Below, piece by piece: positions 2,574 to 15,489 of a DNA stretch of 34,125 nt (positions within the stretch are counted from its first letter, which is position 1; the number at the start of each line of letters is the position of its first letter). The notes under the pieces were generated by a model. The model was given only the letters and a program-made list of their open reading frames with translations. It was not told where the DNA came from and ran no database searches. The translations under genes and the position numbers were made by a program. Location: IMG/VR virus record IMGVR_UViG_3300046721_000305, positions 1 through 34,125 of that record. The stretch is one strand, 5' to 3'. Origin of the DNA: a virus.

Positions 2574-2765
2574 CTACGGCATCGGCGGTAATGGTTTATC
2601 CAAGTAAATAATGTTTTCCACGGCCTCAATTACCCAATACATCCCTTGCTTTTTTTCCTCTGGCATATGCTTGCCAAGTTCAATAATCACTGATGTTGCG
2701 TAACCTATTACCAGCGACAATCTTTGATTCATTTGTATTAGTTTATCTATATTGTCTTCAGTCAT
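2574..2765 (-). CDS. Hypothetical 63-aa early protein
   Basis: The start overlaps the stop of the Tad2-like gene by 8 bases (ATGACTGA), implying translational coupling. The middle is helical with a hydrophobic stretch (SLVIGYATSVIIELG), probably a core helix and too short and interrupted for a clear membrane span. The end is a proline-rich D-K-P-L-P-P-M-P. Small phage proteins ending in this way are familiar to me, but without a known function. Confidence 0.7.
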   Translation of the reverse strand: MTEDNIDKLIQMNQRLSLVIGYATSVIIELGKHMPEEKKQGMYWVIEAVENIIYLDKPLPPMP

Positions 2766-3138
2766 TTAACACCACCCAGTCGTCTGCTGTAAATGAATCA
2801 AAATCAGGGGTGAATGGGAATATGTATAAGGATTCAAGCACCAAAACTTTGTCTAAAGGATCAAGATACATAACCATGTCTTCCCATCCTTTCCATTTTG
2901 CTCTTGACCCTTGCTGCAATAGTGGGATAAGGTCGCAAAATTTAAATTCTTCTTTATTACCCTCTACAATCCATCCATCTGAAATCATGATGGACTCGTC
3001 ATATTGATATAAATTAATCCTGGGCTGAAATGATTTAATTTCCTTATCTTTCATAAAAAAGTAAATGCCATCACCCCATAGACGCCGACTAACTTTAGCG
3101 CCAGACTTTAATTTCTCTATTGCTTCGCTGAATTTCAT
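2758..3138 (-). CDS. Two-copy Tad2-like (DUF2829) protein, possible anti-Thoeris factor
   Basis: Residues 1-58 read like a DUF2829/Tad2 domain: MKFSEAIEKLKSGAKVSRR, a Trp-Gly turn, a short strand I-Y-F-F-M, and an end like D-x-I-M-I-S-D-G-W-I-V. Residues 64-124 look like a second, diverged copy: FKFCDLIPLLQQGSRAKWKG, W-E-D-M-V-M-Y-L, and a closing F-T-A-D-D-W-V-V-L. Known Tad2 proteins have about 85-90 residues with one domain; they sequester the cyclic ADP-ribose-type signal of Thoeris and so block abortive infection. Here two shortened copies appear fused. Anti-defence activity is inferred from the family. A single-copy relative is at 15232-15489. Confidence 0.6.
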   Translation of the reverse strand: MKFSEAIEKLKSGAKVSRRLWGDGIYFFMKDKEIKSFQPRINLYQYDESIMISDGWIVEGNKEEFKFCDLIPLLQQGSRAKWKGWEDMVMYLDPLDKVLVLESLYIFPFTPDFDSFTADDWVVLND

Positions 3139-3152
3139 TTATTTAATTCCTT

Positions 3153-4314: not shown

Positions 4315-4803
4315 TCAAAACGCTATATCGTCATCTTTAAACGGATTATCATCTATTTTTTGCTCTAATGGCCTTTGGTCATCTTTCTTCACATAATCGT
4401 CGATCTTATTTTTGTCTGGATACTTCGAGCCAAATGCTTTTCCTTTTAACTTATCTTCGGGGATGAGTCCACCCTGTTCGATAGTAATTTTAACCCTAAC
4501 ATGATTTCCCATTGCTGATTCAGAGCATAGTTTCCCTGCCTCATAAGTCTTTAAAAGTCCTGCTGAATCAGCAAAGTGTATTACCTTCCACATCATAGTC
4601 TTGGTAAATACCAGGAAGTCTCGCACCTCACGTGTACGTCCATTTTCATCAAAAACCTGCAAGGTAAGATCCATCATTGGGTTACCACTACTAGACACTT
4701 TATCTTTGGATGAAGCAATCACAGCCTCATATTCGCCTTCTTTAAGCAAATTGAATCGCTCTTCAATTGCTTCTCTTTCACTCATGACATCATAGGCAAA
4801 CAT
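4315..4803 (-). CDS. ssb: Phage single-stranded DNA-binding protein (DUF669-like)
   Basis: Residues 15-120 show the DUF669-type pattern: LKEGEYEAVIASSKDKVSSS, M-M-D-L-T-L-Q-V-F, WKVIHFADSAGLLKTYEAGK, G-N-H-V-R-V-K-I. This family is an OB-fold-like phage SSB group. The last 35 residues are acidic and disordered and end N-P-F-K-D-D-D-I-A-F, like the SSB tip (DDDIPF) that recruits partner proteins. The ribosome site AAGGAGAG lies inside the end of the Sak4-like gene, so the two are co-translated. It should coat single strands and stimulate annealing by Sak4; cognate Sak4-SSB pairs are known, for example in the P22-like phage HK620. Confidence 0.8.
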   Translation of the reverse strand: MFAYDVMSEREAIEERFNLLKEGEYEAVIASSKDKVSSSGNPMMDLTLQVFDENGRTREVRDFLVFTKTMMWKVIHFADSAGLLKTYEAGKLCSESAMGNHVRVKITIEQGGLIPEDKLKGKAFGSKYPDKNKIDDYVKKDDQRPLEQKIDDNPFKDDDIAF

Positions 4804-4808
4804 AATAA

Positions 4809-5654
4809 TTACTCTCCTTGTATTTTTTTGTTAAGATAATCGATGCATTTTTGGATAGCATCACTTGGCATTTCTTCCCATCGCTCTGAGCTAGATTTGT
4901 CCAGCCATTTACGATAGGTTTCTTCAGGGATCTTTATTAAATCAATGAGCCGCAAAACTTCTTGGATTTGAATACTGCTTGCTAACTCCTGTGCTACTGC
5001 ATCTCTTTCGAGAATCTCTTTACCGTAACGCTTGGCTACTTCATTATAAGAAAAATCAAAAGTCTCTGAATCTGGGAATGACTCTACACGTGATTTTTTA
5101 ATCAATGCAACCCGATGCTTTCCGCGCTTTTGTATTTCAAAGACTAAATCAAAAAGATAATCCAGCTTTTTATAACAATCGAATGTCTGACCCAGCACCG
5201 ACAAATTCTCACCATAAACCAATTTGGCATGACTGGTGATAATGACGTTCATATCAAGCCGAAGCAATAAATTGATTAAATGATTAATCTTTTTGTTGGC
5301 ATCCGAATAATGACGACCAAATTCCGTGCCATTTTTTAAAGCCGATTTGTCAAGCAAGTCATTATAAAGTGTCGTTAATGGATCGATAATCAATGTTTTG
5401 TATTCATGATTTTCTGTTAAAAGTGAATTAACCTCCCTAACGACCTCATCAAAATCGGTGGTCTGAAATATAACGCCGCCCGAATCATGTAGTAATTGCG
5501 TATATTGGTCATTTTCAGCCCCCCTTTCTGTATCTATTAAATAAGGCTTTGGAAATTGAATGGCAGCCGTTGTCTTCCCAACGCCAGCACCACCATAAAA
5601 TAATGCCTTTAATCTTTTTTCAACTGCTTCTGGTTTCTTTGCTCGTAAAGCCAT
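4809..5654 (-). CDS. Sak4-like RecA-fold ATPase / single-strand annealing protein
   Basis: AAA_24-type P-loop protein of 281 residues. Walker A is G-G-A-G-V-G-K-T-T (21-29) and Walker B is K-T-L-I-I-D (86-91). A later strand M-N-V-I-I-T-S-H-A-K fits the sensor strand of RecA-like folds. The C-terminal 80 residues are helical. Phage proteins of this type (Sak4) are distant RecA relatives that anneal complementary strands with their own SSB, which is the next gene. The start has GGGAG upstream. Role: recombination, repair and recombination-dependent replication. A different DnaB- or RecA-type phage NTPase is possible, but the SSB neighbour favours Sak4. Confidence 0.8.
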   Translation of the reverse strand: MALRAKKPEAVEKRLKALFYGGAGVGKTTAAIQFPKPYLIDTERGAENDQYTQLLHDSGGVIFQTTDFDEVVREVNSLLTENHEYKTLIIDPLTTLYNDLLDKSALKNGTEFGRHYSDANKKINHLINLLLRLDMNVIITSHAKLVYGENLSVLGQTFDCYKKLDYLFDLVFEIQKRGKHRVALIKKSRVESFPDSETFDFSYNEVAKRYGKEILERDAVAQELASSIQIQEVLRLIDLIKIPEETYRKWLDKSSSERWEEMPSDAIQKCIDYLNKKIQGE

Positions 5655-7677: not shown

Positions 7678-8700
7678 ATGTCGCATGCAAATTATAACAC
7701 GAATGCTCAGGAGTACAACCACCCTGCTTATGTAAATATACCTTTCTTTGTACTTCAAGAAGAGAGACTGGATTTTTTTAATAAATTCTTGTTTTCTTTA
7801 TTTTGGAGCTTTTCTGTTTCTGGCAAACGGATTAATACAAGCAATGGATACTTAGCTGAATTATTTAAAGTATCTGAAAAATACATTCAAATACGAATTA
7901 AAGACTTAGAAGACTTGGGTTTCATCCGCCGCTACAGTCGCAAATACAAGCGCTACATTGAAGTTCTTCACGCCCCTTTTAATGACATAGAAATATCAAA
8001 TAGCCCAAATATTGAACTGGTACCAACCACAGTTGGTGTCAGTACAAATATTATACTGCCACCAACCACAGTTGGTGTCTCCCACCAACTACAGTTGGTC
8101 CCCCCACCAACCACAGTTGGTCCATATAACAAAGAAGATAACAAAGAAGATAACAAAGCTAATACAACACCTATCGGTGTTTCCGAGGGAAAATCCTTTT
8201 TGTTGACTGTAAAAGACATGCTTAAAGACAATCCTCATAACATTGACGAGCCATTGCTTAATGAATGGATGATTATTCGCAAAAATAAGAAAGCGCCTTT
8301 GACTCGTACTGCGTGGAATAGAACGAATAAGGTGATGACACGACTTGTTGAAGCTGGTTTGTTAGCTGTTGATTGTTTTGAGCGAATGGTAGCAAGTGGA
8401 TGGCAGGGGATGGAGTTTAAGTATTTTGAACAAGAATTGATTAAAAACCCTGTATTAAAATATCCAACTCCTAGCGAACGGGCTATTAATGAACAAAAAA
8501 TTCGTGAACGTGAACTAAAATCGAATCAGGAAAAGCAAAAAGAGATTGAAGAAAGTACTTCTTCCTATAAAAATATAAAGCAGCATATAAATATTTTTGA
8601 TATGAAAAAACATCAAGATGCAGATATGGAGAAATTGGGAATGAGCCGTCTTCAGTATCATGATTATATAACCATGGGGAAATCTATCGTTCATAAATAA
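7678..8700 (+). CDS. Replication initiator, lambda-O-like, with winged-helix domain
   Basis: Start at 7678 is preferred because AAAGGA lies 9 bases upstream; an in-frame ATG at 7645 would add 11 residues. Residues about 20-100 are an HTH_36-type winged helix (H-P-A-Y-V-N-I-P, N-G-Y-L-A-E-L-F-K-V-S, ISEKYIQ-like recognition helix, L-G-F-I-R-R-Y). Residues 115-150 repeat P-T-T-V-G because the DNA there is a set of four iterons. N-K-E-D repeats follow. The C-terminal domain (about 185-255) holds W-M-I-I-R-K-N-K-K-A-P-L-T and S-G-W-Q-G-M-E-F, as in other phage O-type initiators. It should bind the iterons in its own gene and recruit the host helicase loader or helicase, as no DnaB or DnaC gene is visible. 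Confidence 0.8.
   Translation: MSHANYNTNAQEYNHPAYVNIPFFVLQEERLDFFNKFLFSLFWSFSVSGKRINTSNGYLAELFKVSEKYIQIRIKDLEDLGFIRRYSRKYKRYIEVLHAPFNDIEISNSPNIELVPTTVGVSTNIILPPTTVGVSHQLQLVPPPTTVGPYNKEDNKEDNKANTTPIGVSEGKSFLLTVKDMLKDNPHNIDEPLLNEWMIIRKNKKAPLTRTAWNRTNKVMTRLVEAGLLAVDCFERMVASGWQGMEFKYFEQELIKNPVLKYPTPSERAINEQKIRERELKSNQEKQKEIEESTSSYKNIKQHINIFDMKKHQDADMEKLGMSRLQYHDYITMGKSIVHK
8022..8121. other. ori: Replication origin: four dyad iterons inside the initiator gene
   Basis: ACCAACCACAGTTGGT occurs at 8022-8037, 8061-8076 and 8106-8121, and with one change (ACCAACTACAGTTGGT) at 8084-8099. Each has perfect 6-bp arms around a 4-base centre. Spacing start to start is 39, 23 and 22 bases. Iterons inside an O-type gene beside an A-rich tract match the lambda ori plan. 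A CRISPR array is excluded by the short, coding, palindromic units. Confidence 0.85.
8126..8158. repeat. A-rich 12-bp direct repeats beside the iterons
   Basis: ATAACAAAGAAG is repeated at 8126-8137 and 8138-8149 with a partial third copy to 8158. The strand bias (purines on the plus strand) and position next to the iterons suit a DNA unwinding element. Confidence 0.7.
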
Positions 8701-15231: not shown

Positions 15232-15489
15232 ATGTTATTGCAAGCTGCACTTGAGCTATTAAAGGATGGCGAAAGCTTATACAGGACAGGCTGGGATCCA
15301 CAAGATGGTTATGTGGTTTTTATGAAAGGCATGACGCACGTTTGGAAGATTGTGCTCAAACCTCAACCCAATGCCGGTAATTATATCTTCTCGCTAGAAG
15401 ACTTATTGGCGAATGACTGGGAATTATTTGTGATTACCAAAGAACCCATTGAGGAAATTGCGATAGGCGAGCCTCATTCAGTTGAATAG
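15232..15489 (+). CDS. Single-copy Tad2-like (DUF2829) protein (85 aa)
   Basis: MLLQAALELLKDGESLYRTG, then W-D-P-Q-D-G-Y-V-V-F-M-K-G, and a closing S-L-E-D-L-L-A-N-D-W-E-L-F are the start, Gly-Trp turn and end signatures of DUF2829/Tad2. Length equals that of known Tad2 proteins, which hold the Thoeris signal molecule in a tetramer. A second, two-copy relative is at 2758-3138. Placement in the late structural region is unusual for an anti-defence gene. A different ligand or only a structural use of the fold remains possible. AAAAGGAG precedes the ATG. Confidence 0.65.
   Translation: MLLQAALELLKDGESLYRTGWDPQDGYVVFMKGMTHVWKIVLKPQPNAGNYIFSLEDLLANDWELFVITKEPIEEIAIGEPHSVE

Follow-up and report, generated by a model that had tools for sequence, protein, structure and literature searches.

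The closest described relatives of the protein analysed here are Tad2 proteins (Thoeris anti-defence 2), i.e. SPO1 gp34.65, ModTad2 of Myroides, HgmTad2 (AcrIIA7) and SptTad2. Known Tad2 proteins are symmetric homo-oligomers, so changing one binding site alone is hard. The PDB titles of HgmTad2/AcrIIA7 and SptTad2 name cADPR isomers and cGG as ligands. In the review PMC12043709, cyclic dinucleotides are described as bound through an insertion between β2 and β5, the gcADPR pockets as including loops of two protomers, and the β3–β4 loop as part of the gcADPR pocket. SPO1 Tad2 and ModTad2 share an N-terminal F..A...L..G....R..W signature and a C-terminal P-x9-W ending with A-x-D-W, and their first and last Trp are 61 residues apart. 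Two Clostridia phage proteins (i.e. gp19 of Ruminococcus phage phiRg507T2_3 and its counterpart in Dorea phage DO134P1) carry two stretches matching PF11195 (Tad2-like) in one reading frame, so that two-domain Tad2-like proteins are not unique to the phage group described below. We found no paper on tandem or interlaced Tad2 in the open-access literature, which leaves the absence of such a report unproven.

We analysed a 34,125-bp virus record over its full length (hereafter the window). Its terminase shares 41% identity with the Pelagibacter phage Hodr terminase across 84% of the query, and its portal protein is of the P22-like type according to the annotation of its best matches. The gene under study encodes a 126-aa protein (hereafter P0001; Table 1). 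Its stop codon overlaps the beginning of the following minus-strand ORF (2574-2765), and an AAGGA motif 9 nt before its ATG resembles a ribosome-binding site. In 48 of the 50 loci that carry an orthologue, the SAK4-like and DUF669 genes lie upstream of the Tad2-like gene and share its strand; in the remaining two, the Tad2-like gene is within 1.7 kb of the locus start, where the contig ends. Because the gene order in the window is identical to this arrangement, we place P0001 in an early-type recombination block, which is probably expressed early judging by its gene content.

Table 1. Positions in the window of the two-copy Tad2-like gene, its segments, its conserved neighbours and the second Tad2-like gene.
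Feature	Position	Strand	Remarks
Two-copy Tad2-like protein ORF (P0001, 126 aa)	2758..3138	-	ATG start, TGA stop at 2758-2760; orthologues found
Copy 1, residues 1-61	2956..3138	-	PF11195 score above the cut-off when taken alone
Copy 1 front, residues 1-33	3040-3138	-	Canonical Tad2 N-terminal signature F..A...L..G....R..W
Copy 1 back, residues 34-61	2956-3039	-	No Tad2 likeness detectable by simple pairwise comparison
Copy 2, residues 62-126	2761..2955	-	PF11195 score below the cut-off when taken alone
Copy 2 front, residues 62-96	2851-2955	-	Diverged; signature Arg gone in most members
Copy 2 back, residues 97-126	2761-2850	-	Canonical P-x9-W ending with A-x-D-W
AAGGA, 9 nt before P0001 ATG	3148..3152	-	Read from sequence
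DUF669, matches phage ssDNA-binding protein family	4315..4803	-	Upstream of P0001; conserved neighbour
SAK4-like ssDNA annealing protein (AAA_24)	4809..5654	-	Upstream of P0001, same minus-strand block; conserved neighbour
Second, single-domain Tad2-like protein (85 aa)	15232..15489	+	Between large terminase and portal; PF11195; both Arg and Asp present

P0001 as a whole matches PF11195 in two stretches (47.9 bits, 1.9e-12), above the curated cut-off of 25 bits. The two halves resemble each other beyond chance: shuffled sequences reached their global alignment score in 0/5000 and their local score in 2/5000 trials, and a profile–profile comparison gave an E-value of 1.8e-8. These results bear out the proposal of the initial annotation that two shortened Tad2 copies are joined in 126 residues. 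Copy 1 alone scores 32.9 bits (9.9e-8) and passes the cut-off, but copy 2 alone stays below it (21.3 bits, 3.9e-4). Neither NCBIfam nor PADLOC gave a match to P0001; PADLOC gave none to the single-domain Tad2-like protein either.

Related viral contigs were gathered through terminase and portal searches. Among the 73 listed loci, 50 were searched (48 relatives and the two Clostridia phages), and a full-length P0001 orthologue (32–58% identical) is present in 23 of the 48 relatives. Considering only the relatives of at least 30 kb, 16 of 23 contain an orthologue and seven have none on record. One of these contigs (G005) ends inside DUF669, and another (G031) contains neither SAK4 nor DUF669. 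No orthologue was found downstream of DUF669 in G009, G020, G030, G032 and G036, and in the last of these a 298-aa ORF (L196 793-1689) ends in a Tad2-like domain. The early block of G009, from which the two-copy gene is absent, contains a 68-aa ORF with a Tad2-like ending (ADDW; L211 2731-2937); this ORF has no Pfam match and matches phrog_643 weakly (0.023).

An alignment of 21 family members (A1) was then used to search further loci, and 49 viral loci and one locus in a metagenome-assembled genome (MAG) were found to carry the orthologue; these 50 loci and P0001 make up a second alignment (A2) with 46 distinct sequences. In the 50 pairs whose divergence was usable, dN/dS has a median of 0.12, with similar values for the two halves (0.10 over 50 pairs and 0.12 over 47 pairs). 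P0001 is thus a real gene with both copies conserved under purifying selection. A spurious ORF or chance repeat might be suspected because copy 2 alone falls below the Pfam cut-off and a close relative is absent from all phages of the annotated collection; the 50 orthologues that share the two-copy build, the purifying selection and the conserved place rule this out. Terminase and portal relatives, and then A1, led to the family: viral contigs searched with P0001 alone, or with SPO1 Tad2, returned nothing, and a tblastn search of 50,697 phage records with P0001 returned three weak matches, none covering 80%. The only genome match is a 34-kb contig (JAHFOW010000001.1) binned into a Planctomycetota MAG. 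This contig belongs to the same phage group and carries both Tad2-like genes. Planctomycetota were considered as the host and not accepted, since the link is weak and PF11195 was found in 0/293 other Planctomycetota genomes of the sample.

The signature residues of Tad2 are divided between the two copies. Arg18 is present in all 46 distinct sequences, while its equivalent in copy 2 is Met (20), Leu (17), Arg (5), Trp (2) or Ile (2). Conversely, Asp120 is present in 46/46, and its copy 1 equivalent is Gly in 43, Asp in two and Ser in one. The copies have therefore diverged from each other, as the initial annotation had supposed, with the Arg invariant only in copy 1 and the Asp only in copy 2. 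Taking each copy on its own, the Arg before Trp occurs in copy 2 of 5/46 and the Asp of Asp-Trp in copy 1 of 2/46 sequences; the presence of both in one copy is an observed habit of the family (i.e. SPO1, Mod and 26 single-domain rows) rather than a curated rule. A unit composed from both copies, if real, would contain the two residues together. Counted from the conserved Pro, the last Trp lies at a spacing of 11 in copy 2 (46/46), which matches SPO1 Tad2 and ModTad2, and of 18 in copy 1 (46/46). At the level of sequence, the Arg/Asp split and this spacing suggest a composite Tad2 unit that combines the front of copy 1 with the back of copy 2.

Pairwise segment tests against SPO1 Tad2 and ModTad2 agree in part with such a composite unit, and alone are insufficient to decide. 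Shuffled segments reached the observed score in 0/2000 trials for the front of copy 1 with both references, in 70/2000 (SPO1) and 15/2000 (ModTad2) for the back of copy 2, and in 138/2000 and 276/2000 for the back of copy 1. A Tad2-like appearance is also seen in the front of copy 2 (0/2000 and 1/2000). A PDB profile search placed the C-terminus of SPO1 Tad2 and ModTad2 on profile positions 105-123, i.e. in copy 2, with weak second pieces, and placed the C-terminal piece of SptTad2 weakly in copy 1 (profile 27-62).

Structure prediction gave the Tad2 fold rather than an unrelated one. AlphaFold2 models were obtained for P0001 (pLDDT 92.3, with a moderate pTM of 0.67) and for an orthologue 35% identical to it (L188; pLDDT 94.2, with a moderate pTM of 0.74), and in each predicted copy a helix is followed by strands, a long strand, a short helix and a final strand. 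For both models, Tad2 proteins (SPO1, Spt, Mod and Hgm/AcrIIA7) fill the top ten PDB rows, with Z values of 9.5–10.8 and rmsd of 1.6–2.0 Å for P0001 (next row Z 3.9), and Z values of 10.1–11.4 and rmsd of 1.2–1.6 Å for the orthologue (next row Z 3.7). SPO1 Tad2 gave the best Z for both (10.8 and 11.4); its fold matches the P0001 model at 1.6 Å over 62 residues, and HgmTad2/AcrIIA7 and SptTad2 match the same model with Z 9.5–10.5. In a second look at the structure lists, no family other than Tad2 stood out. Foldseek itself matched Tad2 with weak E-values (at best 5e-3 in PDB and 4.4e-4 in BFVD), probably due to a long gap that breaks the match.

These alignments comprise 61–63 residues, yet their range in the models runs from residue 1 to 124-126 and covers the Tad2 chain from near its start to its end. 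Because one copy is only ∼61 residues long, such a range needs both copies, so the matched Tad2 fold combines the front of copy 1 with the back of copy 2; this interlacing is read from the first and last aligned residues rather than from contacts, and the break point between the segments is an estimate. Identities to SPO1 Tad2 are 14/33 in the front of copy 1 and 5/28 in the back of copy 2, which fits 32% of 62. The signature residues and the aligned ranges of the two models agree in suggesting interlacing. The two copies thus appear, in the predicted models, to form one canonical composite unit and one degenerate unit rather than beads on a string, and the degenerate unit would join the back of copy 1 to the front of copy 2. 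By comparison, SPO1 Tad2 and ModTad2 share both terminal signatures with P0001 but lack its two seemingly interlaced copies per chain.

P0001 also differs from the known Tad2 proteins in length between the signature residues. The Trp-to-Trp stretch is 36 residues in copy 1 (44/46, with one 35 and one 38) and 37 in copy 2 (46/46), compared with 61 in SPO1 Tad2 and ModTad2. According to these lengths, both P0001 copies lack the β2–β5 insertion, which in HgmTad2 and SptTad2 bears the cyclic-dinucleotide site, according to PMC12043709. Its absence argues against binding of CBASS dinucleotides through the known Tad2 site. The β3–β4 loop, part of the gcADPR pocket in that review, is probably lost too. 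In the composite arrangement, residues ∼34-96 would occupy the place of the Tad2 insertion.

Taken together, we tentatively favour the explanation that P0001 is an early-expressed, interlaced two-repeat Tad2 protein that acts as a dimeric sponge for a TIR-type signal, although this falls short of an even chance. Two minimal Tad2-like repeats would exchange their C-terminal elements within one chain, so that the front of copy 1 combines with the back of copy 2 into one canonical Tad2 unit in the AlphaFold prediction, while the other two segments would take the place of the β2–β5 insertion as a second, degenerate unit. Two chains may then pair and mimic the known Tad2 tetramer, and the canonical composite may hold a small TIR-made ADP-ribose-type signal, with the result that a Thoeris-like defence of the host would not be triggered. 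Cyclic dinucleotides should not bind at the known Tad2 site because the insertion is gone. A fuller version, in which a swapped dimer of minimal Tad2 has been fused into one gene to give an asymmetric sponge, with the second repeat at the place of the cyclic-dinucleotide site, one conserved and one degenerate site and possibly an undescribed signal, is roughly a one-in-three proposition in our judgement. The fixed place beside SAK4 and DUF669 and the strong purifying selection count against a sponge, being less typical of a swapped-in anti-defence gene, as does the missing record of an orthologue in seven of the 23 relatives of at least 30 kb (in G005 through the contig end).

The fixed place and the purifying selection favour the serious, main rival, a role in recombination or replication, though we consider it unlikely on balance. 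The interlaced fold would then be a protein- or nucleic-acid-binding module of the SAK4–SSB early operon that holds no immune signal. Consistent with this are the upstream SAK4 and DUF669 genes (the two loci without them begin near the gene), the low dN/dS and the absence of the pocket-forming insertion; moreover, the single-domain copy of this clade weakly matches phrog_643, labelled transcriptional regulator (1.7e-4), so that the fold may have uses other than a sponge. However, all the Tad2 proteins with solved structures that we found are named anti-defence or ligand-bound in their title or molecule name, and the genes just downstream of DUF669 vary among relatives, as they do in accessory-gene blocks.

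Two independent Tad2 domains, with separate pockets for different signals and forming a pseudo-tetramer by dimerization, seem less probable still. PF11195 does match both copies, and the Clostridia phage proteins show that two Tad2-like stretches can share one frame. However, the aligned ranges of both models span both copies, the canonical Arg and Asp are in different copies and the canonical spacing occurs only at the end of copy 2, whereas the second domain of the Clostridia proteins has Arg and Asp-Trp in one stretch. Those proteins are longer, their second domain is complete and canonical (71.8 and 75.8 bits) with no sign of interlacing, and P0001 aligns poorly to them (28% and 25%). On model ranges and signature residues, this arrangement is weaker than the composite one, and the two pockets for two signals envisaged in the initial annotation are less likely than one Tad2-like site and one degraded site. 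Inhibition of type II CRISPR-Cas, after the name AcrIIA7 of some Tad2 proteins, is highly improbable: AcrIIA7 structures are among the matches, but only the fold is shared and they are no closer than other Tad2 structures (Z values within 1.3).

The second Tad2-like protein of the window offers a contrast within the same genome. It is 29% identical to copy 1 of P0001 over 63 columns and consists of one domain encoded in the late gene block, whereas P0001 has two copies and lies in the early-type block. Both Arg and Asp are present in 26/26 rows of its family in this clade, and a separate PF11195 match of single-domain size (frames of 80–136 aa) occurs on all 23 relatives of at least 30 kb. Its core, PNAGNYIFS..DL..DDW, is very conserved. 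Anti-defence proteins are not usually encoded in the late block, where this Tad2-like gene lies.

A clade with two unlike Tad2-like genes, one in an early-type and one in a late block, provides a ready comparison. If P0001 is an interlaced sponge, a natural two-copy asymmetric form would allow mutation of a single site and show how phage sponges shift specificity. If it is a recombination partner instead, a Tad2-like annotation cannot be taken to mean anti-defence without a test.

Several other features lie near P0001 or elsewhere in the window. A DUF6948 protein is encoded at 1193-1492 on the minus strand (strong Pfam match, 2e-31). Two adjacent small minus-strand ORFs (2034-2276 and 2249-2488) end in near-identical Cys/His-rich tails (NYCGHDY..MDH.TASYFKC.KCG), which gives the impression of a duplicated zinc-finger-like tail. 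Positions 961-1184 contain an array of 6-, 12- and 30-base repeats with several frames open, whose translations are rich in Lys-Ala, Pro-Glu or Gly-Asp. Finally, almost three copies of a 22-base repeat (8059-8123) lie within a replication-initiator-like ORF and encode repeated PTTVG stretches.
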